Assembly (NCBI GenBank): GCA_002722885.1
Contig: PBNE01000013.1
Location: 226,831 to 290,830 of the forward strand
Source of the DNA: Rhodospirillaceae bacterium
GTDB taxonomy: Bacteria > Pseudomonadota > Alphaproteobacteria > SP197
Direction of reading: 5' to 3'
DNA: 64,000 nt
The position numbers and the translations under genes are program-made. The notes beneath the pieces were generated by a model, which was not told the origin of the DNA, made no database searches, and was given only the letters and a program-made list of their open reading frames with translations. Within the stretch, counting starts at the first letter, position 1. The number at the start of each line of letters is the position of its first letter. Of this stretch, positions 5,371-27,038 are shown one piece after another.

Positions 5371-5770
5371 ATGACGGACGACTTCTTAACGATTAAGCAA
5401 GCACCTGAGACGCGCACCTATCCGATGCGCCTTGAGCTCACTGGCTACTTCAGTGAAGACGCGTTCGACTTCTTTCATCGATACAAGTTGACGTTCTACT
5501 CCGACCAGTTCGACTTCCAGTGCGTGAAGAGTCGGCGGGTTAAGGCCTACATCGACCTTCGCATGGCGCTCGAAGTTCTACTCAAGGCAGCCGTCTGTTT
5601 ACGCGGTTCAGGCGAACTCGCCGGCAGGCAACTTGTTCGAGAGATCCGGCGCTATCGACACAATATCGAGCGCTTCACTGAAGCGGCGCTGAGGGGCATC
5701 GAGCTAGATGCTCGGTTCATGGAGGCCAAAGGAACCCGGGCTGCCCAACTGCCACTAGGCCTCAAGAGTG
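5371..5770 (+). pseudogene. hypothetical protein, 3' truncated (possibly HEPN-like)
   Basis: MTDDFLTIKQAPETRTYP...YIDLRMALEVLLKAAVCLRGSGELAGRQLVREIRRYRHNIERF looks coding. After about 5755-5770 the ORF runs antisense into the FNR gene. Confidence 0.5.
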
Positions 5771-7050
5771 AGATCCGAGGTCGGTACAGAGCAGCAGGCC
5801 AAACAGGTCCCAGGCTCAGCGGCGGCGCTAGGAATGATTGTATGGCGGGAGGTGCCTGCCTTGATCGCAGTGATGCATGTGCCGCAGTTGCCCGCTCGGC
5901 AACCGGCCTCCATCGGAATGCCGTTGGCCTCCGCTAGGTCCAACAAGGAATCGGCCTTGCCATCCCAAGTGAGTGCCTTGTCACTGCGCGCAAAGGTGAT
6001 CGTAAAACCTTCCGTGGCCTCGTTGACTTCATCGACCTGCTTGGTCTGACCGATGCGCTTGATGCTTGCGGGCCCGAAGGCCTCGAAGTGGATCCGTTCA
6101 TCGGGGACGCCCCAGTCCAAGAGTCCCTCGTAAAGCGACTTCATCATCGGCGGCGGCCCACAGAAGAGGAAATCGTAGTTGTTGGACGGCAGCAGGTCCC
6201 TGAAGAGATCAACGCCGACCCTGCCGCCGTGCTGAAAATGCTCACCCTCGATATCGCCGTCCTCGGGATCGGAATAGCATACACGGAGTCTGGCGTTGGG
6301 ATGCTGCAGAGCGAGGCGCTTGAGGTGATCCTTCATGATGTGTTCACGGCCACAACGTACGCCATAGAAGAACCAAATCTCCTGTTCGGAGTTGCGTTCC
6401 AGCAGAGTATTGAGCATTGACAGAACCGGCGTGATACCGACGCCGCCACCGATCAACACGACAGGCTTGCGCTGCGCGGGGTCGAGGTAGAAGTGACCAG
6501 CCGGTGCCTTGACGTCGAGGATGTCTCCGACCCGCGCGTTGTCATGGAGCCAGTTCGACGAGGATTTTCTGATGTCGGCCCTGCTTTCGTCACGAGGTGG
6601 GGCCTGACGCTTAACTGAGATCCGATACTTTTCCTGGTGTGGTGCATCCGACAGGGAATAACACCGCACGACAGGGCTGGAAGACCCGGGAAGCTTTAGA
6701 TTGAAGGTCAGAAACTGCCCAGGAAGGTAAGGCGGGAGCGGGCGTTTGTCGTGCGGCGAAAGGTAAAAGGAGCAGATATCCCCGCCCTCCTCAACACGCT
6801 CCATCACCTCGAACTTCCGCCAGCCCGACCAGGAGAACTGTTCGCGCTCGCGCTCAAGCCTGCCACGCTCCAACAAATCGTCGATGCGCCGGTTTAGCAG
6901 CGATTGCTCCAACTCCGCGGTGCGCGCGGTGACCGACACCCCGTGAGCCTCTCGCAGCGCCAGCACAAGGACATAGGCGGCAATGGCACCAAAGATGGCT
7001 CCCGCCGCCAGATTGATCATCATGTTGGGTTCCATGAACCGCCCTCTCAC
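5755..7050 (-). CDS. FAD/NAD(P)H-dependent reductase with C-terminal plant-type 2Fe-2S ferredoxin domain and N-terminal TM anchor
   Basis: 431 aa; RCYSLSDAP (FAD), LIGGGVGITPVLSML (NAD-binding), C-terminal CRAGNCGTC...CLACC 2Fe-2S motif; N-terminal hydrophobic segment. GTG start at 7050 or ATG at 7035. Confidence 0.88.
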   Translation of the reverse strand: MRGRFMEPNMMINLAAGAIFGAIAAYVLVLALREAHGVSVTARTAELEQSLLNRRIDDLLERGRLEREREQFSWSGWRKFEVMERVEEGGDICSFYLSPHDKRPLPPYLPGQFLTFNLKLPGSSSPVVRCYSLSDAPHQEKYRISVKRQAPPRDESRADIRKSSSNWLHDNARVGDILDVKAPAGHFYLDPAQRKPVVLIGGGVGITPVLSMLNTLLERNSEQEIWFFYGVRCGREHIMKDHLKRLALQHPNARLRVCYSDPEDGDIEGEHFQHGGRVGVDLFRDLLPSNNYDFLFCGPPPMMKSLYEGLLDWGVPDERIHFEAFGPASIKRIGQTKQVDEVNEATEGFTITFARSDKALTWDGKADSLLDLAEANGIPMEAGCRAGNCGTCITAIKAGTSRHTIIPSAAAEPGTCLACCSVPTSDLTLEA

Positions 7051-8588
7051 TAGAACTTCTTGCGAAGCTCGATGCGAAAACCCGAGATGTCGTCCGAGTT
7101 CTCAAGCCAACCGTGCATGGCGTCGAACCGAACGATCCAATCGAGCGCGATCGGCTCTTGGTATCTGAGACCGAGAGCAAACTGGTCACCCGGCGCAGAG
7201 CGCCCCGCAGCATCGTCAAAGGCGCGCAATGCCGCAGCCTCGACGACGAGCTGGCGGTCTAGATTGAAGAGATACTCTATGCCCAAGGCGCCGCCAAAGG
7301 TGTTGTTGGCAGTGTCGTCCAGCTTCGGGAAGCCGGTCAGATTGTCGGTATCGAAGTTGATCCCGGTGTTCTTGAGCAGTCCGGCGTTGCGCGCCAGAGG
7401 CTGCGGCTTATCAAACCCGACAAAGGCATTGAAATAGGGCACCAGAGTGAGCGGCTGGCTGGTGATCAGCGAGTTTTCCACCAGCAGCGCGAACCCGTCG
7501 GCGGTTTGCGCAACACCGCCCGGCGGATCCTGACCGAAGGTCCAAAATCCGCGGACGGAGTTGGAGAGCCACCCCCCGTAACGGCGCGTGAACGCAACCG
7601 TTGCACTGTTGTAGCCCAGATCTTCGAGCTGATCTTCGCCCACAAGGGCGCCGATACCGGCTTCCCAATAGCCTTCGTTGGCCTCCACGAACGTGGCGAT
7701 ACCAAAGATATCGAGATCGTCGTCGGCGAGGCCGCCGGCCGAATCGCGGATTGCCGGGGTCGTGACCTTGTCGAAACCGGCGAAGAAGGTCACATCGAAA
7801 TTCGTGATGTCGAGCTCGGGACTGTTGCGCGCCGGAAGGGCGAAGGCGCCCCCCACGAAGGCGTCGTCGACCCAAATTCCGTTCTGGAAGATCATCGGGA
7901 CGAGTCCGACCGCGAAAGGAAGATCGAAGTCCTGATACCGCCCGGAGAACCCTGAATAAAGCGCGCCGATGTCGCCTTCGAAAAACAGCGTTTGGGGCAC
8001 ACCGTTAAACTCGTTCACGAAGCCATCGCGGGAATCACCACCCGCGAACTCGTAGCGTGTGAAGTTGCCGTTCTGATCCAGCGGCCGGAAAAAAGCGTGG
8101 AGTCGCTCGGTCGCGGTGATGGCGACATCTATGTCGAGATTGATCTGGGTCGCTACCAGGCCCAATTCGGACGCACCATTGTCATTGTAGGCAACGGCGG
8201 TCCTTAGATCACCGTAGATCCTAAGGTTGGGCCGCACGAGATTGCGCTCACCAAGAAAGGCGTAGTCCTCGGAGAACGGCCCCTCCTGATAGAACGGCGT
8301 ACCCAATTCTAGGAGCGGACGGGGTGCCTCGATCGGAGACTTGCCGCCGTAGATATCGAGCTGCGCCTCGGCGTCGTAGCCATCGTCCTCGTAAGTCGGA
8401 TCGGGCTTGAAAACCGAGGCGTCGAATTCGGTGAACTCCGCGTCAACTGGGATTTCCGGGGGCGGCTGTTCGACGTGAGCATCCCCGGCAACGGCAAGTC
8501 CGGTGAGCGATAGCAAACTCGTCAGCAGGACCACGACAGCAAGACGCGCGCGACAGTCACGCGCTCCCTTGGTCTCGTATGAAGTCAT
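7050..8588 (-). CDS. outer-membrane beta-barrel (porin-like) protein
   Basis: Signal peptide (LAVVVLLTSLLSLTGLAVAG); alternating amphipathic strands through the C-terminus, ending ...GFRIELRKKF (terminal aromatic typical of OMPs). Confidence 0.75.
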   Translation of the reverse strand: MTSYETKGARDCRARLAVVVLLTSLLSLTGLAVAGDAHVEQPPPEIPVDAEFTEFDASVFKPDPTYEDDGYDAEAQLDIYGGKSPIEAPRPLLELGTPFYQEGPFSEDYAFLGERNLVRPNLRIYGDLRTAVAYNDNGASELGLVATQINLDIDVAITATERLHAFFRPLDQNGNFTRYEFAGGDSRDGFVNEFNGVPQTLFFEGDIGALYSGFSGRYQDFDLPFAVGLVPMIFQNGIWVDDAFVGGAFALPARNSPELDITNFDVTFFAGFDKVTTPAIRDSAGGLADDDLDIFGIATFVEANEGYWEAGIGALVGEDQLEDLGYNSATVAFTRRYGGWLSNSVRGFWTFGQDPPGGVAQTADGFALLVENSLITSQPLTLVPYFNAFVGFDKPQPLARNAGLLKNTGINFDTDNLTGFPKLDDTANNTFGGALGIEYLFNLDRQLVVEAAALRAFDDAAGRSAPGDQFALGLRYQEPIALDWIVRFDAMHGWLENSDDISGFRIELRKKF

Positions 8589-10666
8589 TCCGTCACCTCC
8601 AACGTCACCGCATAGGGATGGACATCGATCATCCACTCGTTCATCGCCTGCTCCATCTCCGTCGTCGCCCCAACGAAGCGCATGAAGTAGATCGGCTCCG
8701 CACGACTGCGCAGACGCACGGCGAGGGTGTACTCGCCCGGCTTGCTCATGGCTTCGGCGGGAACAGTGTAGTCGGCATCGCGCCAGCCCAGCGGCGGGAT
8801 ACTGCGACCTTCCATGCGGATGAAGGGAGGATGGTTGAGCACAGTCGTTGGCACGTTCGCCGGCCGCAGGAAGGGAATCTGGTCGATATCAAAGTTGACC
8901 GGCAGATACATCTCCCGGTCCGTGCCCTTCACATTGGTCGTCAAAAACTTGGTCTGCAGATTGAACAGTTGATCGTCATGCGCGATCTCGCCTGCCGCGA
9001 CCTCGAGCGAGTGGAGGTCGGCCATGTCACCGTTGCCATCGACATAGCCGGACTCGAACACGGTGACGCCGTCAGGATCGATCAGCGCCACATTTAACCA
9101 GATTTCGGGCTGGGCGCCGAGCGAGCCGGAAGGCAGGTTGTGGCCCTCGTCGGTGTTGGTGACGCGATAGCTGAACGAGAAGGATTGACCAACCGCCGGG
9201 GGACTGTCGAAGTAGGGACCATCGATCCGTGAGCCGTTCTCCATGACCTGCACCCTGAGATCGCGCTTCTGATCGAGAAGCATCAGGTTCCAATCGATCA
9301 CTTCGCGCGCCTCGATACGGTCGTCGGAATAGGCCCAGGTGTCAGGCCATTCGTAACTGAATGCGAGCTGCAGGGTGTCAACCGCGTCGTCGAGCCGTTC
9401 GGCAAGCACCTCGGCATCGCCAGCGCCTGCGATCAGATCTTCGACCGTGAGCTCGAAGGCAGCAAAGGCCTGCTCCAGTCCCGACGGATCCTCGAGCTGC
9501 TCGATGCGGCCGTCGACGGCTTCTTCGGCATAGTCAAGCAGGTCGTAAAGGTCGTCCTCCGGCATGGTGTCGCCGGTATCGGCCGCCTCATAGACCAGAT
9601 CGACGACATCGGGCGCCGTGAACTCGAAGGTATCCTCATAAGCGAAAGCGACTTCCTCGTAGTCGTCGGTGCCCCAATTCGAGCGATAGTCGAAGTTTAA
9701 CCACTCCTCGATCGTCCAGGACTCGGCATCAGGATTGTGGGGAAAAATCCCAGGATGAGCGATCGGATAACCCGGACCGTAGAACGCGTGGTTATGGTGC
9801 GGCCGCGGTTCGCCAACCGGTTCGCCGTCGACGATCGCGGCATAGTCCATGTCGTAACCCGCAGCGATCCCTGGGATTTCGCCCATATGGCAGTCTTGGC
9901 ACTGCACGCCTGCGGCAGCAGCGGGGGAATCCCGGTACTGGTCCCAGACGACCTCGAGTTTGATACCGGGATCCACAGCAACTTGGTGGCACGAGACGCA
10001 GAACTCAGATTCGGTAATCTGCTCGAACTCGATGACGCCCTGGTGGATTGCCGATCCACGGCTTTCACCGTCGATGTCGACCTTCCAGTAGTCGGGGTCT
10101 TCCAGAACCTCGGCAATATTGCTGCCCTCGCCGCTACCGCGCATGGGCTCGTAGATCTCACCGGCTGTAATCGTACGCTCGCCATCGACCTTGCCGTATG
10201 CGCCAGCGACGCGGTGACAAGTGATGCAAGTGACACCTTCCCGCGAAATCTGACTGCGTTCCCAAAGCGGCGCCTCGCGCGGCTCGCCCATCTGCGTTCC
10301 GACCTGCTGATGGCAGCGCACGCAGAAGCTACCGATCGTACCCGAAGAGAGATCGTTGATAGTCTGCTCGAACTTGTGAAACATCGGCGAAATCGACGAA
10401 TAGGCGTGGTTAGACGAGGCCCATTCCCAATAGATGCGCTCGTGACAGGCGATACACTGGCTCGCGCTGGGATAGTTCTCTTCCAGAAACACCGCGGCGT
10501 GCGGATCCTCAATCGCCGCCATCTCGACCTCAGCCTCGTCGTCGACCTCCTCCTGGCCGAACGCACCGGCGCCAATCGTTAGCAACGCGGCCATCGCCAG
10601 AACCGTCAGCCAGAGCGTGGCCTGAGACCTGAAGATCTGGTCATGAGAAGATTGTGTGGACGTCAT
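8585..10666 (-). CDS. pentaheme c-type cytochrome, secreted/membrane-anchored
   Basis: 693 aa; five CxxCH motifs: CIACH, CVRCH, CITCH, CVSCH, CQDCH; N-terminal hydrophobic signal/anchor. Confidence 0.88.
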   Translation of the reverse strand: MTSTQSSHDQIFRSQATLWLTVLAMAALLTIGAGAFGQEEVDDEAEVEMAAIEDPHAAVFLEENYPSASQCIACHERIYWEWASSNHAYSSISPMFHKFEQTINDLSSGTIGSFCVRCHQQVGTQMGEPREAPLWERSQISREGVTCITCHRVAGAYGKVDGERTITAGEIYEPMRGSGEGSNIAEVLEDPDYWKVDIDGESRGSAIHQGVIEFEQITESEFCVSCHQVAVDPGIKLEVVWDQYRDSPAAAAGVQCQDCHMGEIPGIAAGYDMDYAAIVDGEPVGEPRPHHNHAFYGPGYPIAHPGIFPHNPDAESWTIEEWLNFDYRSNWGTDDYEEVAFAYEDTFEFTAPDVVDLVYEAADTGDTMPEDDLYDLLDYAEEAVDGRIEQLEDPSGLEQAFAAFELTVEDLIAGAGDAEVLAERLDDAVDTLQLAFSYEWPDTWAYSDDRIEAREVIDWNLMLLDQKRDLRVQVMENGSRIDGPYFDSPPAVGQSFSFSYRVTNTDEGHNLPSGSLGAQPEIWLNVALIDPDGVTVFESGYVDGNGDMADLHSLEVAAGEIAHDDQLFNLQTKFLTTNVKGTDREMYLPVNFDIDQIPFLRPANVPTTVLNHPPFIRMEGRSIPPLGWRDADYTVPAEAMSKPGEYTLAVRLRSRAEPIYFMRFVGATTEMEQAMNEWMIDVHPYAVTLEVTE

Positions 10667-10672
10667 GGTGCG

Positions 10673-12673
10673 TCACTCCATCGTTGCTTCAAGCTCCACC
10701 ATGCGGCGGAGGAAACCAGTTTCAAGATGATAATTGTGACAAAGCAAACAGCCTTCGTCGGCAGCGATCGCCTGGAGGCCGTCGTCACCTTCGCCGTGAC
10801 ACGATAGACATTGGGCGTTCCCGATCGAACGGAAGCTCGAAACCGGGCGGTTCGCGTCAAGGGTTTCGTATGCACCGGCGATGCCGCTTTCTTCCTTTAG
10901 ACGATGACAGACCGAACAGGAAGTGCCTTCGCCCAGAACATTCAGATGCGGGCCGTGGCTGTAGCGCACGTAAGGGCTCCAGGGTGTGTTGTCGCTTTCC
11001 CATCGGACCTCGACCGGCGTCGCAGGATCGGTCGGATTGCCGTTCGACACGCTCATGCTGTGACACCTGGCACACGAACCGGGTCCCTGTCCCGGGCTCA
11101 TGAGCGTGTCACGGACAAAGAGCGCGTGATCGACATCGCCACTGGCCTCCGCAGCCAGTGTCGGAGCGGCCGCGGCGAGATCGAGCCAGGCGGTCATCAC
11201 TGGATCCGCATGGCCCGACGCCATGTAGTCGACAGTCAGGCCGTCCACGTACCAACCGCCGCCGGGTGGCGGGTCCTGACGGACGTCAGCATTGGCCATC
11301 CACGCGCAGACCGCGGTGCGCACCGTATCGTCGTTCAGGCCGGCCAGCAGGGCGACACCGTCCACCGTTCCGTCGGTACGATCCTCGATCAGGCTCGCCA
11401 GCGGCTCGCTTCCACTGTCGGCAAGATCGAGATAAAGCCAGAGCAGGTCGTCGACCAAAGGTTCATCGGCCGGCAGGTCGTAGATATCGGGGTTCTCCGC
11501 ATCAAGCGCCCATTGCATCAGCGGCGTCATAGCTTCGCCGAACGCCACCGATTCGAAATCGCCGAAGGGGTCGCCTTCGGCCACGGCGGCGCGGGCGACG
11601 ATGAGAGAGCGGTAGAATTCAGGCGATCCGCGGTCGGGACATAGTTCGGCAAGGTACTCGTGATCGAGTGCTGCGAATTGTTCGGCCGAGAACTCGGGCA
11701 GCGCCAGCACCGGCAGCGAGCGGTCGTCGAGGTCGCCCGCATGGCAGGACGCGCAGGACTCTTCGAAACCACGCACCGGTACGAAATCCGTCGCACGGTC
11801 GACAACGTGGCAATCGACGCAACCTGTGGGATCGTCTGCCGCGGCCTGAAGGAAGTGCTTGCCCAGATGGGTGACGTGGTCGAACCGCAGCGCGGTTCGC
11901 TGGAGAGATGGATAAAGCTCACCGAAGGGCACGTGGTCGGTGAAGCTCTCCATCGCGACCAGATGGCACGTGCTGCATTGCGCGTCGGTCATCTCGACTA
12001 AGTTCGCATCCAGGCCGTCGTGTTCGGTATGGCAACTGATGCATTCCATCTGCGCAAGGTCGGGATTGCGCAGTGAGGACATCGCTACCGATTCAAAGTT
12101 ATGCGGATTGCGGACATCGCCCTCGAAAACATGGCAGTCGAGGCAGGCGGAGGTCATGTCCTGGCCGACGAAGATGCTGCCCAGCCAGTCGCCCAGATCA
12201 CCGTCGTGGGCGACGTGGCACGCACCGCAATCGTCGCCTACAAACAGCAGATGCGAGCTTGAGATCATACCCGGGCTGAGGCTGTTGGTGGCATGGCTCG
12301 CGTCGCTACCGGTTTCGATGATGGCACCCAGCAGGGCGATCATGGCGATCACCGCGAGAAAGGTAATTCGGGAGCGCTGATGACGCAGGGACCGCCGCGG
12401 CACGCAGGGTGGACGCCGCCGCGCACAGCGCCCCTCGGGATCCGGGCCCTCCGCGCACGGACCGCCGGCGGAGACCGGTCTGCGGCACTCCCAGCGATCC
12501 TTGCTTGCATTATGGAATGGCCGGCAAGCCGTAACGCCGCCGCAGCTTCCATCGCCGTTGGGTCCCATCGGACACGGCCGGCCCCAGATCGCCGCTCGCC
12601 CGCAACGCCACTTGCGGTTGGGCCGTTCGTAGGGGCTGCGATCAAACTTGAACCTGTCGGATGAGAGCTTCAC
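10673..12673 (-). CDS. decaheme c-type cytochrome with N-terminal Cys-rich domain preceding a TM helix
   Basis: 666 aa; ten CxxCH: CGACH, CLDCH, CISCH, CSTCH, CVDCH, CASCH, CARCH, CSVCH, CLSCH, CLLCH; Cys-rich N-terminus followed by TM (ITFLAVIAMIALLGAIIETG). Confidence 0.88.
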   Translation of the reverse strand: MKLSSDRFKFDRSPYERPNRKWRCGRAAIWGRPCPMGPNGDGSCGGVTACRPFHNASKDRWECRRPVSAGGPCAEGPDPEGRCARRRPPCVPRRSLRHQRSRITFLAVIAMIALLGAIIETGSDASHATNSLSPGMISSSHLLFVGDDCGACHVAHDGDLGDWLGSIFVGQDMTSACLDCHVFEGDVRNPHNFESVAMSSLRNPDLAQMECISCHTEHDGLDANLVEMTDAQCSTCHLVAMESFTDHVPFGELYPSLQRTALRFDHVTHLGKHFLQAAADDPTGCVDCHVVDRATDFVPVRGFEESCASCHAGDLDDRSLPVLALPEFSAEQFAALDHEYLAELCPDRGSPEFYRSLIVARAAVAEGDPFGDFESVAFGEAMTPLMQWALDAENPDIYDLPADEPLVDDLLWLYLDLADSGSEPLASLIEDRTDGTVDGVALLAGLNDDTVRTAVCAWMANADVRQDPPPGGGWYVDGLTVDYMASGHADPVMTAWLDLAAAAPTLAAEASGDVDHALFVRDTLMSPGQGPGSCARCHSMSVSNGNPTDPATPVEVRWESDNTPWSPYVRYSHGPHLNVLGEGTSCSVCHRLKEESGIAGAYETLDANRPVSSFRSIGNAQCLSCHGEGDDGLQAIAADEGCLLCHNYHLETGFLRRMVELEATME

Positions 12674-12678
12674 GGCGT

Positions 12679-13503
12679 TCAGACGAGATAAACGTGGACG
12701 AGGATGACGTGCCAGATCACAAGCACCAGAAAGGCGTAGGTGGCGGGCACATGGACCAAGAGCCAGACCTTGAGCAGCCGCTGCAGCGTGTAGGAGCGAT
12801 CAAGATCGATCTTGAGATAGGCCAGGGCTTGCAGCCTGGAGCAGTAGTCATGCTCCTCGCCCTGCAGATAGATACTGACGCTGTCGATGTGATGGCGAAG
12901 CCAGAAATTGGCGGTGTTGGCGACAAAGAGCGACGAAATCGCGAAGCGCGGCTTTCGGAAGTACCAGTGCAGGTTTTCGCGGTAGAGTCGCGGCAAAACC
13001 TCGCTGCCGGTCTTTTCGGCACATTCCATGATGATCTCTTCGGCCTGTCGCCGAAGCTCGTAGAGATCGCCGGGGATGCGCTCCCAGATGAACTCGTTCT
13101 GGATTTTCGTGAGCGCCGTTGAGAGCACGCGCTGGAGGATGTAACCCGCGATCCCCGATAACACGACCGCATAGAACAGCAGGGCCAACAACAGCTCGTA
13201 GCCGCTGGGCCAGAGCGTGCGGGCATGAAGCGCGTAGACGATGATCACGCCGATCCCGACGACGACGTGCACAACCAACCAGTAGCTGCTTCTGCCCAGG
13301 GGCAGCATCGAGAGCTTCTTGCGAATGTTGTAGAGCGCGAGAAACACGATGGAGGCGAGCAGCAGCCAGCCTGTTTCGATCTCGGGATGCCCGAGAACGA
13401 GAGCTTGGCTGTAATCATACCAGGCGACGGCCGCACACGAGCCGACAAGGAACATACCGAAACCGACACGAAACGCGAAACGCAAAGCGTTGCCGCGAAT
13501 CAT
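12679..13503 (-). CDS. polytopic membrane protein, cytochrome b561-like
   Basis: 274 aa with several TM helices and conserved-looking His residues in them (LVVHVVVGIGV, YALHART, LLVHVPATYAFLVLVIWHVILVHVYLV). Confidence 0.65.
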   Translation of the reverse strand: MIRGNALRFAFRVGFGMFLVGSCAAVAWYDYSQALVLGHPEIETGWLLLASIVFLALYNIRKKLSMLPLGRSSYWLVVHVVVGIGVIIVYALHARTLWPSGYELLLALLFYAVVLSGIAGYILQRVLSTALTKIQNEFIWERIPGDLYELRRQAEEIIMECAEKTGSEVLPRLYRENLHWYFRKPRFAISSLFVANTANFWLRHHIDSVSIYLQGEEHDYCSRLQALAYLKIDLDRSYTLQRLLKVWLLVHVPATYAFLVLVIWHVILVHVYLV

Positions 13504-15224
13504 CGTTCTTCCGCCATCTGCACAAGATCCGCAAAACTGCTTCGACGCAGAGCATCATGGGGACAGGCGCGCACACACGCGGGTCCGGCCGGCTGGTCGT
13601 AGCAGAAGTCGCACTTGGTGGCCTTCAAGAGCGGCACCCCCTGTTCGCTGTCGATGATCACCTCGTCGCGGTCATTGCGAATCTCGACCATGCGGATGTT
13701 GTCGTATGGACAAGCGTTGGCGCAGGTCTGGCAGCCGATGCATGTCGTGTCGTTGATCACGACCATGCCGCTTGCCTCGTCGCGATGGATGGCGCCGGTC
13801 GGGCAACCGATCATGCAGACCGGATCGGTACAATGCATGCAGGCGTTGGCTACCATCCAATGTGAATGATCCTTGCCGTGACGCACGAATCGTGGATTGC
13901 CATCGTGGGTCGAGGCACAGGCACGGACACAATCGTCACAGCGGACACAGCGATCCAGATCGATCACCATGGCGCGCGTACCATTGATGAAACGCTCACC
14001 GATCGCCCACTCGAGCAGCGAGTCATCGGCGAGCGGCCGTTCGAAAGCTGATTGTAGATCGTCGGACGGGGACTGGCGGAGATTGGGAAAAACGTGCCGT
14101 TCCATGACAAAATAGGGCACACGCAATACGTCGACATACCCAAGTGGCGTCAGCGACGCGCGCATGGCGACATCGTCGTCGCCCCTCCAAAGTCGGTAGA
14201 GTTCATCGAGACCAAAGACATCGCCAGCACGCAGATAGGTCAGCGCACGCTCGCCATTGCCGATGCGCCTGGTGACCTTGGCGAAGCCGCCGCGGATCAT
14301 CAGAAGGCCGTCGGGGTAATCGCCCTCGTTCACGATCTTCGCACCGACGCTTTCTGCGCCCCGGCGCTTGAAATCAACGTTCCAGTCGAACGATCCATAC
14401 GACTCAAACAGCGTGTCGGCAGCCACCGCATCAATCAGTTCCGACGACAGGCCGGAGAATAGGGCATCTTCTTGCAGATGAAGCTTCAGCGCGTTGTTGC
14501 GATAGGTTGAGTCGATGCGTTCGCGCCACCCCGGATCGTAGCGGCGTAGTTCGCGCAGACCCTGCCAACGGATTTCAAGCAGAAGCGCATCGACCTCCGC
14601 AACAACCGTCGCGGTCCGGGGACTACGCGCTACAGCAGCGATCTCACCAAAGATGCGCCCTTCGCCCAGGGACACCGTCGTCTGTGTCTGACGGACGTAG
14701 TCCATGTCGAGTCTTGTCTGTTGCTGCTCGACCGTCCGGACGCTGCGCTCTGACACATCATTCATGCGCCGCAATTCCATGATCTTGCCACGGTTCGTCC
14801 AGAGCTGAGACAAAGCAGACAAGAGGCTCTTTCGACGTGATGGCGCGCGCCCCAGCATCGACGGTGGCAAACCGGGTGTCAGCGCGACGCAGACCGAGCC
14901 TTCCACCACGAGGAATGCGGAATTGCCGTAGTCACCCTCACGCACGACGACGTCACCAGCCTGATAACGGATCAGTCTCGTATCGTTGGCGAGGATACCG
15001 TCCAGCGGAATCTGAACAGGGAAGCGATGGGCTTGGACGCCGTCAAACGCGGGCAGCGCGAGAATACGTTCAACGTCGTGGCTCGAGAGCTCCTCATCGA
15101 ACGGTTTATCCCAGCGTTGAGGCCGAGGAACGGCATCCATCGGCCAACCTGCCCGTCGCATACGCTCACGCCCCCGATCGAGTTGTGCCGAACTGTCACT
15201 TGTACTCGGTCGGCACGAGATCAC
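13500..15224 (-). CDS. tandem cyclic-nucleotide-binding domains fused to DmsB/HybA-type 4Fe-4S ferredoxin
   Basis: 574 aa; cNMP-like regions (GDVVVREGDYGNSAFLVVEGSV; GAKIVNEGDYPDGLLMIRGGFAKV) and 4Fe-4S motifs CVRCDDCVRAC, CMHCTDPVCMIGCP, CIGCQTCANACP, CDFCYDQPAGPACVRACP. Confidence 0.88.
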   Translation of the reverse strand: MISCRPSTSDSSAQLDRGRERMRRAGWPMDAVPRPQRWDKPFDEELSSHDVERILALPAFDGVQAHRFPVQIPLDGILANDTRLIRYQAGDVVVREGDYGNSAFLVVEGSVCVALTPGLPPSMLGRAPSRRKSLLSALSQLWTNRGKIMELRRMNDVSERSVRTVEQQQTRLDMDYVRQTQTTVSLGEGRIFGEIAAVARSPRTATVVAEVDALLLEIRWQGLRELRRYDPGWRERIDSTYRNNALKLHLQEDALFSGLSSELIDAVAADTLFESYGSFDWNVDFKRRGAESVGAKIVNEGDYPDGLLMIRGGFAKVTRRIGNGERALTYLRAGDVFGLDELYRLWRGDDDVAMRASLTPLGYVDVLRVPYFVMERHVFPNLRQSPSDDLQSAFERPLADDSLLEWAIGERFINGTRAMVIDLDRCVRCDDCVRACASTHDGNPRFVRHGKDHSHWMVANACMHCTDPVCMIGCPTGAIHRDEASGMVVINDTTCIGCQTCANACPYDNIRMVEIRNDRDEVIIDSEQGVPLLKATKCDFCYDQPAGPACVRACPHDALRRSSFADLVQMAEER

Positions 15225-16188
15225 TCACGGCAGCGGAGTGGTCCTGACCGGCGATCGCCAGAGCAAATGCTTCAGCATTCGCTTCAGTCGGATCGGCCAG
15301 CACGGCTGCGCCGACATCGATTCGTGACAGAGCCTCGGTAGCGCGCGCGATACGCACCTCCATCGCAGCGACGTAATCGGGATGAGAGGTCCGCGCCGAG
15401 CCCTCGGTCGCTGCGACAAGCGAGGCCGCCTGACCCACCAGATACCACTCAGCCGATTCGGCCGCGGTGAGTTCCTGATTAACGTCTCTGTCGGGCGGAT
15501 AGAAGCGGTGGCGCACCTGACCCTGGCTGTAGGCGATGTATTCGAAATCGCCATTCACGGGATGACCGGCATCCAGCATGATCTCCAGCGTCGCAACGTC
15601 GAGCGCATCGTTGTTGAGACCGTGGCAGGTGAAGCAGTTGCGCGTGGCGTCGTAGGTCATATGCGGCCAGATCATGCCTGCCGCAGCGGCATCGTTAATA
15701 CGCTGGGCTTCATGCTCCGCCGACTCCTGCTCGGCCGTAACGCCCTGACCACCGTAATTGTTGTGAATCTCGATCCAGTCCGACGCTGCACCGTGACAGC
15801 TTTCGCAGGACGGGCCCGCCACCGGATCGGGTTCACCGGAAGCATCTGTGAGCGCCGTGTAATGGCAGAGAATGCAAACTTCGCTCTTCTTGGGGTTCCG
15901 GTCGCCAACTTCCTTGACGATGTCGCGTGCGTCGCGGTTCCTGTGAAACTCGTCGAAGAGGGCAGCGTGTGGCGTGTCCTCCCAGACGGTGAATTCCGGC
16001 TTATGACACTTCTGACAAGCCTCTGGCCCTAGGAAATCCTGGGCCGATGCGGTCTGCATCAACGTGACCAATGCCAATGCCAGCAGTCCCCAACGAAGTA
16101 GCAGCATTTCGAAGATTCCCTCGACCATTTTAGCCGCGGTATCGACGACTATGCCCCGGCCAGTCACCCAAGCGGCTGGTAGCCCCAA
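15196..16188 (-). CDS. tetraheme c-type cytochrome (cytochrome c554-like)
   Basis: 330 aa; four CxxCH: CQKCH, CILCH, CESCH, CFTCH; signal peptide LLLRWGLLALALVTLMQTASA. Confidence 0.85.
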   Translation of the reverse strand: MGLPAAWVTGRGIVVDTAAKMVEGIFEMLLLRWGLLALALVTLMQTASAQDFLGPEACQKCHKPEFTVWEDTPHAALFDEFHRNRDARDIVKEVGDRNPKKSEVCILCHYTALTDASGEPDPVAGPSCESCHGAASDWIEIHNNYGGQGVTAEQESAEHEAQRINDAAAAGMIWPHMTYDATRNCFTCHGLNNDALDVATLEIMLDAGHPVNGDFEYIAYSQGQVRHRFYPPDRDVNQELTAAESAEWYLVGQAASLVAATEGSARTSHPDYVAAMEVRIARATEALSRIDVGAAVLADPTEANAEAFALAIAGQDHSAAVSDLVPTEYK

Positions 16189-16261
16189 CCCACCTGAAAA
16201 CGAAACCGCAATTCTTGGAATCTATCGTTCAACAGCGATCAGGGCCTGTCAACAAACCAAA

Positions 16262-16326
16262 TGATCCTTCGCCCGCGAATTGGTCCATCCTGATGTTTGG
16301 GAAGGATGGCCAGATATGGCGAGGAT
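16262..16326 (+). mobile_element. IS3-type insertion-sequence end remnant (copy A)
   Basis: About 60 of 64 nt identical to 30896-30960: tgatccttcgcccgcgaattggtccatcctgatgtttgg[g/t]aaggatg[g/t]ccagatat. Confidence 0.65.
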
Positions 16327-16346
16327 CAATCGACTGTATCCCCTTG

Positions 16347-16535
16347 CTAGGTCCCAACCATGAGGTCGTTGCCCAGGCATTCGGTTCTCGAACGCAGCAG
16401 GAAGGACGCAGCCAAATTGTGCATGCTATCGGCTTGCTTCAGGGTTTCAGGGCAGTAGGGGTCGGCCTCCAGAAGCTGTTCTGCCATCACCTGCAGCAGA
16501 GTGGCCCGTTCGAGATCAGCATGTATGACGTCCAT
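16347..16535 (-). CDS. small hypothetical protein (62 aa)
   Basis: Strong Shine-Dalgarno (ttgaaaggagtacaacgATG); MDVIHADLERATLLQVMAEQLLEADPYCPETLKQADSMHNLAASFLLRSRTE. Confidence 0.4.
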   Translation of the reverse strand: MDVIHADLERATLLQVMAEQLLEADPYCPETLKQADSMHNLAASFLLRSRTECLGNDLMVGT

Positions 16536-16846
16536 CGTTGTACTCCTTTCAACGTTCTTTGTACGGAGCCGAGGCGAAATGCGATCACTGTCCTGCTACA
16601 ATTCCTGCGTCCAGCATCTGCCTGGCAAGCTGCGCTCTTAAGACGGTTTCGTCGATAGGCCAATTTGCCCGGGCCTTCGAAACCGGAGGGCCCCTTGTTC
16701 GCTGATCGTTGCCATGGACGGGGTCTCAAATGGGGCATTCGCCTAATTAAACGAATTAAACGTCTGATCTATTGTTTGTCGATCTTAAGAAGGAGGGGCC
16801 GATCATGGTCGGAACATCGGGCTCCATCCGCTATTCATCGATTGGC

Positions 16847-17170
16847 TCAGCCACCCCAAACATCATCGTATCGGGTCGTTCCGTCGCCTGCGGGGTAGTC
16901 GCGGTAAGTCGCGCGAGATGCATCGGCAACGTTACCGGCGTTGCGAAACGTCAGGCCGGTTACAAGGAATCCAACAGCAACAAGGACATGCCCCACGATC
17001 AGTTCGCCGTACCAAATCCAGGCGCCGGTTGCGGTGCAAAATATGGCGGTCCACATCATGGCGAGCGTACTCATGATCTGGAACCGCTGCGCCGGCGGCA
17101 GCGTGCGCAGGGGGTTGACCGAAGGATCCATTACAGATCGGTACAAGGAAAACATGGCAATCTCTTTCAC
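16847..17170 (-). CDS. small two-TM membrane protein
   Basis: 107 aa; two hydrophobic segments (MMWTAIFCTATGAWIWYG; IVGHVLVAVGFLVTGL). Confidence 0.6.
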   Translation of the reverse strand: MKEIAMFSLYRSVMDPSVNPLRTLPPAQRFQIMSTLAMMWTAIFCTATGAWIWYGELIVGHVLVAVGFLVTGLTFRNAGNVADASRATYRDYPAGDGTTRYDDVWGG

Positions 17171-17194
17171 GGATTGGTTGTCGGGTCTAGAACG

Positions 17195-17353
17195 CTATTT
17201 CTGTCCGCCGATCGAAGATCCCTGACGGATGCGCGCCATCTGGACCCGCAATGCGTCGATGCCGGGAAGAGGAACGACAGACAGTCCGGGGAGAAGCAGC
17301 ACACCCCGGGGCAGGGTGGGTTTGACGACCTGATTGTCGTTTGCAGTACGCAT
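17195..17353 (-). CDS. candidate 52-aa small protein (below ORF-track length cutoff)
   Basis: RC reading gives MRTANDNQVVKPTLPRGVLLLPGLSVVPLPGIDALRVQMARIRQGSSIGGQK*, with AAGGAC upstream. Confidence 0.35.
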   Translation of the reverse strand: MRTANDNQVVKPTLPRGVLLLPGLSVVPLPGIDALRVQMARIRQGSSIGGQK

Positions 17354-17680
17354 AGGTTGTGTCCTTGCTTTGAATGTTTCCGTTTCTACGTGGCCAGAAG
17401 CTCGATAGATCAGTCAAAGCTGCCATGCGTGGAGCGCCCGACCCGGTTTTCCTGGTTGAGCCCTGGCGCCAACCGGAACCGGCGTTTCGACAAATGACCT
17501 CATTGTGTTGGGATTCGGAGGCACATCGTGTCTGTCCGACAGGTCAAATGCCGTCCGAAGCTCGCGTGTTGCACCCCAGGCGGCGCAACATCATCGCTTG
17601 AGAAGGCAGCACTGGACACCGTTCGCGGGAGTGACTGATGGTGCCCAGTACTGCCATAACCGCCCACACGGGCTGATCTA

Positions 17681-17708
17681 TTTACGCGGACTCAGGACGA
17701 TCGGATCA
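17681..17708 (-). promoter_or_regulatory. predicted RpoE/ECF11 promoter TGATCC-N16-CGTAAA
   Basis: RC: TGATCC gatcgtcctgagtccg CGTAAATAG; same -35, spacing and -10 as the site upstream of rpoE; overlaps the GPx stop codon. Confidence 0.65.
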
Positions 17709-18275
17709 TTCGGCGTAGAGGATGTCTTCAATCGATTGCTGCAGGTCGCGAGATCCAGGGGTTGTCATACTGGAGAACCACCTCACGAAGTTGCCATCGC
17801 GGTCAATCAGGTACTTGAAGAAGTTCCACCGCGGTTGCCCGGCGAGGCCAGCCTGGTTTGCAATCCACGCGAACAGCGCATGAGCCTCGTCACCCTTGAC
17901 ATTTTGCTGCGTCAGCATCGGGAAATCGATTCCGTAGGTGACTTCGCAGAATGTTTTTGTCTCGTCGTTGCTGTCGTACTCTTGGCCGCCGAAATTGTCT
18001 GAAGGCACGCCCAGAACGACCAATCCGTCGACGCGGTAGCGTTCCCATAACATTTGGAGGCCTTCGTATTGTGGCGTGAAGCCGCACATAGAGGCTGTAT
18101 TGACCACCAACACCGTGTGGCCGATCAGATCATCGGCAGAAAGTTGGCCGCCGTCTAGGCTGGGCAAAGGTATCTCGGACCAGTTCACAGGAGAGGAGTT
18201 GGCAGTAGCGGTGCAGATTGTCATGGCGGCAGTCAGCGACGCAAAGCCGTAACGAATCCTTCGTGCCAGTACCAA
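17706..18275 (-). CDS. glutathione peroxidase
   Basis: 189 aa; NTASMCGFTPQYEGLQMLWERY...LGVPSDNFGGQE...WNFFKYLIDRDG, the Cys-type GPx signature. Confidence 0.9.
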   Translation of the reverse strand: MVLARRIRYGFASLTAAMTICTATANSSPVNWSEIPLPSLDGGQLSADDLIGHTVLVVNTASMCGFTPQYEGLQMLWERYRVDGLVVLGVPSDNFGGQEYDSNDETKTFCEVTYGIDFPMLTQQNVKGDEAHALFAWIANQAGLAGQPRWNFFKYLIDRDGNFVRWFSSMTTPGSRDLQQSIEDILYAE

Positions 18276-18278
18276 TCT

Positions 18279-18938
18279 TCAGACCCTCAAGAGCGGATCA
18301 ATGATACGGCCCAGGGGTCCCGTCAGCCTGAGGCGATCCGACGTCACCGCCAAGCAGATACAAGCCACCTGGTCGTCGGCCAGAGGCTGGTGATCAAGCT
18401 CTTGATCGGCGACCTGAATGTCCCCGCGCACATAGTTTCCGGTGATGTCGCTGAATCCACCTTCCAGAACAAGGGTCAGCTCGGTTCCTCTGTGACTGTG
18501 TTGCGGGACTCCGTGGCCCGGTGCGATACGCAGCATCCTGATCTTATGTCCGGGTTCCGCTGCAGGAAGAAAGGCCGTTTCAATCGCTCCACGACGATTC
18601 CAGGGAACGTCGCTGCCAAGCGAGGTCAGCCGGTCGCGCAAGGGTCGTGGAAAGGTTGCCAGCGCCGGCGGGACTGGGGGACGAGCGGGCCTCACTTCTG
18701 GCTCGCGCTCGTCTCGTTCGATCCGGGCCATCAGTGCTTCAAAATCGTCGCCGCGAGCTTGAGGTGGGTTTTCCCGATCTAGCATGGCGCCGCCAATGCG
18801 TTCGAGCGCTGAGACTTCGCGACGGCAGGCAGGGCACATGGCAAGGTGCGTGGCAATGATCAGGCTGAATGCGTCGCTCATGGCGCCCGTCGCATAGTCG
18901 AGCAGCAGCGTCTGATCGGGATGATGAGAGATGTTCAC
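18279..18938 (-). CDS. chrR: ChrR-type zinc anti-sigma factor with C-terminal cupin domain
   Basis: 219 aa; ZAS motif HLAMCPACRRE after HHPDQTLLLDYATGAMS; cupin HSHRGTELTLVLEGGFSD. Confidence 0.88.
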   Translation of the reverse strand: MNISHHPDQTLLLDYATGAMSDAFSLIIATHLAMCPACRREVSALERIGGAMLDRENPPQARGDDFEALMARIERDEREPEVRPARPPVPPALATFPRPLRDRLTSLGSDVPWNRRGAIETAFLPAAEPGHKIRMLRIAPGHGVPQHSHRGTELTLVLEGGFSDITGNYVRGDIQVADQELDHQPLADDQVACICLAVTSDRLRLTGPLGRIIDPLLRV

Positions 18939-19579
18939 TGCAAACCCTCCAAGGAGTGGCGCAACTTCTTCAGTGCCAGACGCAACCGCGATTTTACGGT
19001 GCCCAAAGGCAAGTCGAGCTGCATGGCGATTTCCGAATGAGACATATCCCTCTGGTACGCCATGGCAATCAGATCGGATTGCTCTACCGGCAAATACGAT
19101 AGGGCCTGGGCGAGAAGGAGAGATATTTGGCGATTGTTGGCATGGTCGTCGGGCAGCGGGCGATCGTCGACGTCCTCGATGACGGTGGCCGGATCGTCGA
19201 TGTCGACCTCAGGACGCGACCGGCGAGCCAGGTCGATACGTCTGTTACGAGCAATTGTGAAAATCCAGGTGGAGGCCGACGCCTTCGACGGATCGAATGT
19301 GGACGACCGCCGCCAGATCCTCGCAAACACGTCCTGAACAATATCGTCGGCCAGAGCCGTTGCGCTGCCTCGCTTTATGAGAAACGAACGGACGCGCGGC
19401 GAAAAATGCTCGAAGAGACGACGAAAGGCCGCGATATCTCTATCGCGACCAACGGCCATCAGATCGGCCTCATGGGATGATAATAAGGTAGTATTAAGTT
19501 CCGCGTGATCAGCCATGGGCTTCTCTAACCCTAGGAAATCAGGAGCGGCAAGCTCGTCGTCCGAAAGCTGTTGGAACAT
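18935..19579 (-). CDS. rpoE: ECF RNA polymerase sigma factor (RpoE, ChrR-associated)
   Basis: 214 aa; sigma2 (FRRLFEHFSPRVRSFLIKRG...ADDIVQDVFARIWRR) and sigma4 (LSYLPVEQSDLIAMAYQRDMSHSEIAMQLDLPLGTVKSRLRLAL); overlaps chrR by 4 nt. Confidence 0.9.
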   Translation of the reverse strand: MFQQLSDDELAAPDFLGLEKPMADHAELNTTLLSSHEADLMAVGRDRDIAAFRRLFEHFSPRVRSFLIKRGSATALADDIVQDVFARIWRRSSTFDPSKASASTWIFTIARNRRIDLARRSRPEVDIDDPATVIEDVDDRPLPDDHANNRQISLLLAQALSYLPVEQSDLIAMAYQRDMSHSEIAMQLDLPLGTVKSRLRLALKKLRHSLEGLQ

Positions 19580-19603
19580 GACACCTCCCGCGCACTTTTG
19601 TTA

Positions 19604-19631
19604 TTTACGCAAGCCAACTGTTCCCGGATCA
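19604..19631 (-). promoter_or_regulatory. predicted autoregulatory RpoE promoter TGATCC-N16-CGTAAA upstream of rpoE
   Basis: RC: TGATCC gggaacagttggcttg CGTAAATAAC. Confidence 0.7.
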
Positions 19632-19642
19632 CAGCCTTCGGG

Positions 19643-19670
19643 TGATCCATTACAGTCTGCCGTGCGAAAA
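19643..19670 (+). promoter_or_regulatory. predicted divergent RpoE promoter TGATCC-N16-CGAAAA
   Basis: TGATCC attacagtctgccgtg CGAAAA, 23 nt before the start codon at 19694; one mismatch from CGTAAA. Confidence 0.5.
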
Positions 19671-19693
19671 AGGATCGTTATTCAAGAAGGTTC

Positions 19694-21022
19694 GTGATGA
19701 AAATCGCTGTTGTAGGGGCGGGAGTTGCCGGTCTGGGGGCCGCTTGGGCCCTTTCCAGACGCCACGACGTGACATTGTTCGAGCAAGAAACGCGTGCAGG
19801 CGGTCACGCCAACACGCAACAAATTGAAATCTCCGGAAAGCCCGTTGCAGTGGATACGGGCTTTATCGTTTACAACACGCTCAACTATCCTCACCTGACC
19901 CGGCTCTTTGAAGCCCTTGATGTGCCGAGCAACGAAAGCGATATGTCGTTCTCCGTCTCGCTCGATGGTGGCCGCTGGGAGATCGCGGGACGTCCGTTGG
20001 GTTTGTTCGGCACGCGGTCGCAGATCGCGAGTTTGGCTCACTGGCGGCTCCTGGCCAACGTGGCTCGGTTCTTTCGGCATGCCGAAAGCGCGCTCAACGA
20101 TCCAATGACGTGCGATGAAACGCTCGGATCCTGGCTTGGCCGCCATGGCTATGACGCGGCGTTCGTGCAGCGTTTCCTGGCTCCGATGGCCGGTGCCATC
20201 TGGTCGTCTAGCCTCGACGGGATCATCGGCTATCCCGTGCGCTCATTCGTTGTATTTTTTCGGAACCATCAGCTTCTAAAGTTTTCGGGTCGCGTGCGCT
20301 GGCGCACCGTTTCCGGCGGCAGCAGCAGCTATGTGTCCCGCATTCTGGATGATTTTCGTGGAAATCTGCAGCTTGGCAGGCCGGTGATTGGCCTTCGTGC
20401 GGACGGGGCCCGACCACTCCTCGAACTGGCCGGTGGAGATATCACTGCGTTCGATGCGGTGGTTCTTGCCAGCCACGGTGATCAGTCAGCGCGCCTTCTC
20501 TTGGATGATCACGACGAAGAACGCACCGCGATTCTGCAATCGTTCCGCTACCAGTCCAATGAAGTCTGGCTTCACCGCGATTGTTCACTGATGCCACGAA
20601 GGCGCCGGTTGTGGTCGAGCTGGAACTACATCGGGGGCACCGACGGCACAGGGGATCACGCGATCGCCGTGAGTTACTGGATGAACCGGCTGCAGCGGCT
20701 TGATACCGACCAGGACCTGTTTGTCACGCTCAACCCGCCCCGTGCCCCAAGGGAGGATTTGGTTCACGCCCGACTTTTTTACGATCATCCGCAGTTCGAC
20801 CTGGCGACCCTGCGTGCCAAAGATGCCATGCATCGAATTCAGGGCCGTGGAGGTGTCTGGTTTTGCGGGAGCTACACGGGTTTTGGTTTCCATGAGGACG
20901 GTCTCCGATCGGGTCTCGACGTTGCGGCGGCGCTTGGAGCTCCGGCGCCGTGGTGGCGCGATGGTGGTTTGACAGAGGTCACCCCGACGAGGCCCGGCGA
21001 GCCGGAAGTCCTGGCGGCATGA
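19694..21022 (+). CDS. FAD-dependent amine oxidase/NAD(P)-binding protein
   Basis: 442 aa; N-terminal MKIAVVGAGVAGLGAAWALSRRHDVTLFEQETRAGGHANT. Confidence 0.88.
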   Translation: MMKIAVVGAGVAGLGAAWALSRRHDVTLFEQETRAGGHANTQQIEISGKPVAVDTGFIVYNTLNYPHLTRLFEALDVPSNESDMSFSVSLDGGRWEIAGRPLGLFGTRSQIASLAHWRLLANVARFFRHAESALNDPMTCDETLGSWLGRHGYDAAFVQRFLAPMAGAIWSSSLDGIIGYPVRSFVVFFRNHQLLKFSGRVRWRTVSGGSSSYVSRILDDFRGNLQLGRPVIGLRADGARPLLELAGGDITAFDAVVLASHGDQSARLLLDDHDEERTAILQSFRYQSNEVWLHRDCSLMPRRRRLWSSWNYIGGTDGTGDHAIAVSYWMNRLQRLDTDQDLFVTLNPPRAPREDLVHARLFYDHPQFDLATLRAKDAMHRIQGRGGVWFCGSYTGFGFHEDGLRSGLDVAAALGAPAPWWRDGGLTEVTPTRPGEPEVLAA

Positions 21023-21804
21023 TGCGAACCTGGCACAGTTGCGTCTACATCGGGCAGGTGATGCACCATCGTCTGACGCCCAAGCGTCACAGGTTTGTGT
21101 ATGACGCGTTCACGATGCTCTTCGATCTCGATGAACTCGAGGCGCTCGACCAACGATTCAGGCTCTTCGGATACAATCGTCGCGCACCTGTGGCGTTCCA
21201 CGACGTCGATCATGGGCCCTGCGATGGTTCGGACCTCAGGGTCTGGGCCCAAACGGAGATACGTCGTGCCGGTCTTGTGGTGCCGAACGGGCCTATCCGG
21301 CTGCTTTGTTTGCCGCGTGTTTTCGGGTTCGCCTTCAACCCCCTGACAATCTGGTTCTGTCACGATCGGGCAGAGCGCCTGACTACGATCATCTATGAGG
21401 TCAGGAACACCTTCGGAGAACGGCAAAGCTATCTCCTTCCCGTCTGCAGTCAGGATGGGATTGTCCGTCAATCTTGCGCCAAGGCGTTTCATGTTTCGCC
21501 ATTCCTGCCGGTTGCTGGCAGCTACAGCTTCCGGTTGGCAAGGCCCGACGACCGCCTGATGGTGCAGGTGCGCCATATGCTAGAAGGCGAGGTGCGGTTG
21601 GTCGCTGTACAGACAGGTGAGCGCCGGCATCTCGAGGATGGCGCGTTGAGCCTTGCCTTGCGACGCTTTCCCTTTATGACCTTCAAGATTGTCGCCGCGA
21701 TCCATGTCGAGGCTGCGCGCCTGTGGCTCAAACGCTTGCCGGTCTTTCGTCATCGGCCAGCCAAAACACCATCAGTCATGGCGGGAGGCGGTGCTCCGCG
21801 ATGA
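21019..21804 (+). CDS. DUF1365 family protein
   Basis: MMRTWHSCVYIGQVMHHRLTPKRHRFVYDAFTMLFDLDEL...RVFGFAFNPLTIWFCHD; overlaps the upstream stop codon. Confidence 0.85.
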   Translation: MMRTWHSCVYIGQVMHHRLTPKRHRFVYDAFTMLFDLDELEALDQRFRLFGYNRRAPVAFHDVDHGPCDGSDLRVWAQTEIRRAGLVVPNGPIRLLCLPRVFGFAFNPLTIWFCHDRAERLTTIIYEVRNTFGERQSYLLPVCSQDGIVRQSCAKAFHVSPFLPVAGSYSFRLARPDDRLMVQVRHMLEGEVRLVAVQTGERRHLEDGALSLALRRFPFMTFKIVAAIHVEAARLWLKRLPVFRHRPAKTPSVMAGGGAPR

Positions 21805-22493
21805 GGCCCGCTTCGCGACGATCTTTCCTGGCTGGGACGGTCGGGCTGGCCTTGATCCCCGGAAAGCTATTGGCCTTGTCGGGCAGCCGCCTCGAGTTCG
21901 AGGTCCATCGTGATAGCAAACCGATCGGCATGCATGCCGTTAACTTTCATAGTGGAGGCGACGACCTCGTCGTCGACATCGAGATCGACCTCGAGGTCGT
22001 TTGCGCCTGGGTGACGGTCTACCGGTATTCATATCGGAACCGTGAGGTTTGGAGGCGTGGGCAGCTCGTGCGCCTGGATTCCGAAACTCATGATGATGGG
22101 ACCGATTACCGTGTCTCCATTAGGCGGAAAGCCGAGACGCTGATGATCGAGGTCGACGGCCAGTTTCAGACCGTGCCAGGTCATTTGCTCACGACGGGTT
22201 ACTGGCACCCCTTGACCATCGAGCAGGATACACTGATCGACACACAGCGTGGCGGCCTGCTCGATGTCGAACACCGGCTCGGGGGCAATGAAACGGTGAC
22301 CTTCGACGGGATAATGTCACAGGCGCGGCGATTCGAGGTGTCGGGCGACCTGACCATGACGACTTGGTATGCCAATGACGGCCTCTGGAGCGGTCTGGCG
22401 TTCGACGCAAAGGGTTCATCCATCAACTATCGGCTCCGCAGTCGTCCCGACCCCGCGACATGGCAGTCGATCGTCGCGCAAACAGGGGGTTGA
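21801..22493 (+). CDS. DUF6134-like secreted protein with Tat-like signal
   Basis: MRPASRRSFLAGTVGLALIPGKLLALSGSRLEFEVHRDSKPIGMHAV; ATGA overlap with the upstream gene. Confidence 0.6.
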   Translation: MRPASRRSFLAGTVGLALIPGKLLALSGSRLEFEVHRDSKPIGMHAVNFHSGGDDLVVDIEIDLEVVCAWVTVYRYSYRNREVWRRGQLVRLDSETHDDGTDYRVSIRRKAETLMIEVDGQFQTVPGHLLTTGYWHPLTIEQDTLIDTQRGGLLDVEHRLGGNETVTFDGIMSQARRFEVSGDLTMTTWYANDGLWSGLAFDAKGSSINYRLRSRPDPATWQSIVAQTGG

Positions 22494-22497
22494 TGTC

Positions 22498-23723: not shown

Positions 23724-23752
23724 TTTGCGTTGTCGATGTCACAACGCCGTAC

Positions 23753-24211: not shown

Positions 24212-24237
24212 GTTTTATGGAAACGCCAGCGCTCGAG

Positions 24238-26761: not shown

Positions 26762-26840
26762 GCCAGATCACGGCAGTGAATATCAGTTTTTGTCTAACGT
26801 CTTAACAAGACAAACCAGAAAATTATAGCGGATCACATGA

Positions 26841-27038
26841 TTATGAGAAAATATGGTCTACTCGGATCTGGGAAATGTCCGCCTTCCGTCGATCCTTGGT
26901 TTTGAGTGATTTTTTGACGTGTTCTCCCTTGTAGCAGTCCGAGAGGTCTTTCGGCACACGGGCACGGACGTGGTACATCCGCGTCCCGTTCTTCTCTTTC
27001 CGCTCCCATAGACAAGGATGTTTCGCCACGTCCTTCAT
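26841..27038 (-). pseudogene. N-terminal stub of a tyrosine-type site-specific integrase
   Basis: MKDVAKHPCLWERKEKNGTRMYHVRARVPKDLSDCYKGEHVKKSLKTKDRRKADI matches the style of phage integrase N-termini; truncated at 65 aa. Confidence 0.6.

Follow-up and report, generated by a model that had tools for sequence, protein, structure and literature searches.

A PCC4 subgroup II porin-cytochrome locus in a marine-type alphaproteobacterium, read as a candidate outward electron wire

Seven co-directed genes of a marine-type alphaproteobacterium, located at 5755-16188 on the minus strand of the 64-kb stretch of DNA analysed here (the window), constitute a real, conserved and co-inherited system. By gene content and sequence motifs the cluster is a PCC4 subgroup II porin-cytochrome locus, a kind already proposed and named from genomes in 2017 by He et al. 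(PMC5566968), and not an unrecognised system as the first-pass annotation had it. We favour, with a probability of roughly 0.55, the reading that this locus encodes an outward trans-envelope electron wire, driven by NAD(P)H and probably gated by a cyclic nucleotide; its route, outward direction, gating and acceptor are what we infer.

The seven genes (Table 1) are open reading frames at the coordinates given by the first-pass annotation, and its CxxCH counts are exact, with four in P0001, ten in P0004 and five in P0005, for a total of 19. The corresponding DNA pattern matches 26 times in the 64 kb, compared with 4.5 expected from shuffled sequences (0/100 shuffles reach 26), and 19 of the 26 are on the coding strand of these three genes. 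The tight packing also holds, with 4-base overlaps at 13500/13503 and 8585/8588, a 6-base gap at 10666/10673, and abutting genes at 7050, but a further overlap claimed between P0001 and P0002 (15196/15224) is doubtful, as it needs a GTG start for P0002, and the P0002 homologues align from Met29 of that reading frame; the later start in Table 1 is therefore more likely. Elsewhere in the window, the 17706-25449 region contains sigma factor (18935-19579, minus strand) and ChrR-like anti-sigma (18279-18938, minus strand) genes near glutathione-peroxidase-like, FAD-dependent oxidoreductase, DUF1365-like, SDR, and cyclopropane-fatty-acid-synthase-like genes, and, judged from sequence alone, looks like a singlet-oxygen (RpoE-ChrR) regulon. 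At 26001-28000 the G+C content falls to 0.522 from about 0.61 around it, near a lipase/dienelactone-hydrolase-like gene (25748-26761).

Table 1. Genes of the porin-cytochrome locus, with positions in the window
Gene	Coordinates	Strand	Features
P0001	15196..16188	-	Periplasmic tetraheme cytochrome c; signal peptide; likely start near 16107; Cytochrome_C554 (E 6.7e-13)
P0002	13500..15224	-	Cytosolic; cNMP-binding module(s) and C-terminal four-cluster ferredoxin; likely start near 15140
P0003	12679..13503	-	Inner-membrane protein; two WX3HX13H motifs and SGxxG; predicted two b-hemes
P0004	10673..12673	-	N-terminal 8-Cys domain, one TM, then periplasmic decaheme c
P0005	8585..10666	-	Exported pentaheme cytochrome c; helical middle; Ig-like C-terminal domain
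P0006	7050..8588	-	Outer-membrane beta-barrel, ~18 strands; conserved N-terminal periplasmic extension; ATG start at 8588
P0007	5755..7050	-	N-terminal TM anchor with FAD, NAD(P)-binding and 2Fe-2S domains; flavohemoprotein-type reductase (domain scan)

The three c-type cytochromes keep their heme counts of 4, 10 and 5 in homologues, including those of eight other carrier genomes. In family-wide alignments, the number of extra conserved histidines in the heme-bearing regions matches all 19 c-hemes: P0001 (59 homologues) has four proximal and four other invariant histidines, P0004 (57 homologues) has ten proximal and ten invariant extra ones, and P0005 (81 homologues) has five proximal and five conserved extra ones, one of these at 95%, with four more conserved in its C-terminal part. 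These counts are sufficient for bis-His ligation of every c-heme, which we infer, and which argues for electron transfer rather than catalysis; the conserved ligands would suit a wire without an open catalytic heme. Domain scans give Cytochrome_C7/CIII-type matches for P0004, whose 8-Cys domain lies ahead of the single membrane span and is predicted to be cytosolic, and Cytochrome_C554 and a NapC/NirT-like stretch for P0005. The P0005 model (pLDDT 80) has a heme domain, a helical middle, and an Ig-like C-terminal sandwich; it has no PDB fold match at E <= 0.001, and the heme region is weakly related by sequence to a pentaheme cytochrome c552 (5ze8). No match was found for the decaheme P0004 in a search against plasmids.

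The putative heme ligands of the membrane protein P0003 lie in W75/H79/H93 and W247/H251/H265, with SGxxG at residues 116-120. All 46 of its homologues have both HX13H pairs, with four invariant histidines, 45 have both complete WX3HX13H motifs, and 37 have SGXXG; two b-hemes are predicted from this pattern. P0003 has no meaningful Pfam domain, no PF01794 match in the domain scan, and no meaningful match to solved structures, and Hema_stalk and Med9 matches of the membrane proteins were dismissed as chance. P0002 combines cNMP-binding and 4Fe-4S dicluster domains (PF13247, E 1.7e-12), and an alignment of 42 homologues has 16 invariant cysteines together with invariant E194 and R203; these last two are in FGEIA...PRTATV, which we take to be the usual phosphate-contact pattern of cNMP domains. 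The fixed heme counts and candidate second histidine for each c-heme are new here, as are the four histidines of P0003 and the 16 cysteines and putative cNMP-contact Glu/Arg pair of P0002. In one relative (G002, L012:11849-13502) the cNMP/4Fe-4S gene is in two reading frames with the other six genes intact, reflecting either a frameshift or an assembly error.

The heme proteins are constant, and the cytosolic entry domains are swapped between lineages. The window type has the cNMP-4Fe-4S protein, a TM-FAD-NAD-Fer2 reductase, and a decaheme with the Cys domain. Hyphomicrobium, Filomicrobium and Rhodomicrobium loci are without the cNMP protein and have a decaheme without the Cys domain; in the first two genera the pentaheme and barrel genes are divergent from the remaining genes, and a Hyphomicrobium locus (L066) encodes a Fer2-first reductase (8209-9288) whose Fer2, FAD and NAD domains match those of P0007. 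In beta- and gammaproteobacterial and some alphaproteobacterial loci, a single protein contains Pyr_redox (pyridine-nucleotide-disulphide-type oxidoreductase), cNMP and 4Fe-4S domains, and the decaheme has an FHA-like N-terminus (a weak FHA match, E 0.0078); in Hwanghaeella the reductase is fused to FHA. The fusion, which puts the NAD(P)H entry and the cNMP-Fe-S part in one chain, supports treating P0007 and P0002 as one functional unit, and nearly every architecture examined includes a cytosolic flavoprotein of the NAD(P)H type alongside an Fe-S protein.

In the outward wire that we propose, the membrane-anchored reductase P0007 would oxidise NAD(P)H and pass electrons to P0003, either directly or via the four 4Fe-4S clusters of P0002, where a bound cyclic nucleotide probably gates the flow. 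The diheme-b P0003 would take electrons through the inner membrane, in the manner of a ferric reductase/NOX whose parts are distributed among several polypeptides. In the periplasm, the decaheme P0004, anchored in the membrane, and the tetraheme P0001 would hand these electrons on to the pentaheme P0005. The barrel P0006 would keep this pentaheme at the outer membrane, where it would reduce an extracellular acceptor, whether Fe(III)/Mn(IV), a chelated metal or a shuttle. Movement from NAD(P)H outward through b-hemes is downhill and aided by the membrane potential, which does not apply to NAD+ reduction from Fe(II) along that route. The outward direction is favoured by this difference between NAD(P)H oxidation with an extracellular oxidant and its reversal through a simple b-heme wire, by the NAD(P)H-type reductase present with nearly every complete cluster examined, and by the resemblance of P0003 and the reductase to a ferric reductase/NOX divided into subunits. 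Against it, P0003 could trade electrons with quinones in place of P0007, no outer-surface cytochrome is encoded in the cluster, and Fe(II) oxidisers are among the PCC4 carriers (PMC5566968).

The opposite direction is that of He et al., who draw PCC4 electrons inward to quinone (PMC5566968), such that extracellular Fe(II)/Mn(II) would be oxidised at the barrel and pentaheme, with electrons passing through the tetraheme and decaheme to P0003 and the quinone pool. It fits the occurrence of PCC4 in iron-oxidising Zetaproteobacteria and in Hyphomicrobium tied to pyrite oxidation and to Mn-removing filters (PMC5566968), and the bc1/FRD-like HX13H pairs of P0003, but gives no evident role to the Fe-S protein and the NAD(P)H flavoprotein of the cytosol that come with nearly all the architectures examined. 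RuBisCO, the one carbon-fixation route searched for, is absent from all nine full carriers among the relatives, which counts mildly against lithoautotrophic Fe(II) oxidation, and we regard inward flow as unlikely.

The narrow barrel is the main problem. The P0006 model (pLDDT 85.4, from 55 sequences) has about 18 strands, and its best PDB fold matches are the OpdO/OccK and AlgE channels, with MtrB absent among the 50 fold matches listed; we predict an OprD/AlgE-like rather than an MtrB-like fold. P0006 has no CxxCH motif, no match by sequence to solved structures, and no Pfam family at E <= 0.1, and so is not assigned to MtrB_PioB. MtrB has 26 strands, and the modelled 18-strand barrel, being much narrower, may not sheath the pentaheme chain; its role may instead be to enclose just a portion of the pentaheme, to anchor it, or to let a soluble shuttle through. 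The first-pass annotation had named an alginate-type porin lacking cytochrome co-occurrence as evidence against a conduit; the predicted fold is indeed of the OprD/alginate-porin kind, but the barrel strictly co-occurs with cytochromes.

The fold nonetheless suggests that P0006 could be a substrate porin, with no electrons leaving through it, and P0005 its reductase partner, periplasmic or bound to the outer membrane, whose substrate would be small and soluble, such as a metal chelate or an oxyanion. The weak similarity of P0005 to pentaheme c552 and selenoprotein cytochromes and its Ig-like domain are in keeping with this, but a candidate second histidine is conserved for all five P0005 hemes, leaving no obvious open catalytic heme, and P0006 has a conserved, family-specific N-terminal extension and is never seen without the pentaheme, either in 80 fetched loci or in 61 relatives. 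We consider this role quite improbable.

Relatives carry the cluster intact and in synteny, as the neighbourhood analysis called for in the first-pass annotation reveals, and its genes do not scatter independently. Among 61 related genomes, nine contain the decaheme, and the membrane protein scores highly in the same nine; the barrel and the pentaheme are each in ten, these nine and G022, a partial carrier with the barrel, a pentaheme fragment at a contig end, and RuBisCO. The seven genes stay together in the eight other carriers, with the same order in seven of them (in one, G005/L014, the contig stops after the pentaheme gene) and rotated to P5-P6-P7-P1-P2-P3-P4 in G042. Only 4 of 10 congeners carry the cluster, which is thus accessory; in G002, transposase-like genes flank it on both sides (L012:2694-4099 and 15119-19377), which fits its uneven distribution in the genus. 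Searching GTDB species genomes with the pentaheme alignment yields at least 466 related loci, and in the 80 fetched the pentaheme is always present, adjoined by the barrel in 77; the three without it (L022, L078 and L094) all stop at a contig edge. Three of 399 sampled genomes of the phylum, including the window's own, are carriers, so the system is widespread but uncommon. The composition and barrel-cytochrome link claimed in the first-pass annotation thus stand, through the synteny, matching presence and absence, and adjacency in 77/80 loci.

The pentaheme-barrel pair is nevertheless a partly separate module. Pairwise divergences among P1-P4 correlate at r 0.86-0.96 and those of P5 and P6 at 0.64, but cross-module values for P1-P4 against P5 or P6 are 0.03-0.54 (0.03-0.31 for P5 against the inner module), indicating partly independent evolution of the inner and outer modules. 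The pair is apart from the inner module in Ferruginivarius sediminum, where a decaheme is encoded elsewhere in the genome. The coupling is less tight than synteny suggests, which counts against the proposed wire. One Geminicoccaceae MAG (L042, L062) has the full cluster, a solitary second pentaheme-barrel pair and two decahemes in total, and two further loci (L056, L061) have the pair and a tetraheme gene, but neither a decaheme nor a membrane-protein gene was recognised in the sequence fetched, representing either a reduced form or a split system. No match to the FNR/CRP-like box patterns tried was found upstream of the tetraheme gene in seven loci. A chance grouping of seven unrelated redox genes, for which nothing but the rearranged gene order in some lineages speaks, is refuted by co-occurrence, given the synteny, fixed heme counts, matching phylogenetic profiles and P1-P4 co-divergence.

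A broader proposal, which we offer tentatively, is that PCC4 as a whole is a second-messenger-gated, multi-subunit analogue of ferric reductase/NOX, in which NAD(P)H electrons would go straight outward without entering the quinone pool. They would leave via an 18-strand OprD-type barrel that differs from the known Mtr conduits, and lineage-specific sensors (Cys-rich, FHA, cNMP) would be swapped on a constant heme core. The pentaheme relatives (at least 466 loci) are spread over Alpha-, Beta- and Gammaproteobacteria and Planctomycetota. Culturable carriers include Hyphomicrobium facile DSM 1565, Kordiimonadales IMCC3096, Hwanghaeella grinnelliae and Solimonas terrae, and exchange of electrons with metals or shuttles through PCC4 may be common yet overlooked. 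With the conserved ligand sets, the NAD(P)H entry modules and the cNMP module, what was a vague candidate becomes a model that specifies a direction and can be tested. We found no experimental, biochemical or genetic study of any PCC4 in the open-licence literature, where a 2026 metagenome paper cites PCC4.

He et al. describe PCC4 as comprising a porin, cytochromes with 4, 5 and 10 hemes, a membrane protein with two WX3HX13H motifs and SGXXG, and redox genes, with a pfam13247 Fe-S gene upstream of the membrane-protein gene in subgroup II (PMC5566968). The locus here corresponds in its porin P0006, its three multiheme cytochromes of the same heme numbers, its membrane protein P0003, and a flavin/2Fe-2S redox gene (P0007), and follows subgroup II in having the PF13247 gene P0002 directly upstream of P0003 and in gene direction, all seven being on the minus strand unlike the divergent Hyphomicrobium loci of subgroup I. 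It departs from the layout as they describe it, with a redox gene upstream of the tetraheme gene (PMC5566968), in that P0007 is at the far end after the barrel; we treat this as a layout variant, since the content is the same and P0007 is directly upstream of the tetraheme gene in G042/L019. The cNMP module on the Fe-S protein and the 8-Cys domain on the decaheme are not mentioned for PCC4 in the excerpted text of that account (PMC5566968). Of the described PCC4 members the comparison covered those of Hyphomicrobium, and homologues of the tetraheme, membrane, decaheme, pentaheme and barrel genes are present in its loci L066, L067 and L071. Subgroup I (Hyphomicrobium; L066, L083) shares the 4/10/5 cytochromes, barrel, membrane protein and flavin/2Fe-2S reductase, but has two divergent units, no cNMP/4Fe-4S gene, a Fer2-first reductase, and a decaheme without the Cys domain.

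Among other known systems, we agree with the first-pass annotation that this is not Mtr, Pio, Cyc2, Nrf, Hao or Sox. MtrAB, MtoAB and PioAB similarly pair an outer-membrane barrel with a periplasmic multiheme cytochrome, but here the barrel has a predicted ~18 strands, there is no outer-surface MtrC, and the decaheme is anchored in the inner membrane; P0006, with no Pfam match and a fold nearest OccK/AlgE, is not a member of that family. The decaheme P0004 is not of the DmsE/MtrA type, scoring 25.6 bits on TIGR03508 with a cut-off of 192.2. PCC3, with an extracellular multiheme cytochrome (heme medians of 34 and 21), is rejected, as only 4, 5 and 10 hemes are found here, and Cyc2 is rejected because it is a porin-cytochrome fusion, which is absent here, the barrel P0006 being free of CxxCH. 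The locus resembles ferric reductase/NOX (FRD, PF01794) in having two membrane HX13H heme pairs and an NAD(P)H-FAD reductase, but differs in that P0003 has no PF01794 match, the HX13H pattern being all that the two share there, in that the reductase is separate, and in that electrons would go on into c-type cytochromes.
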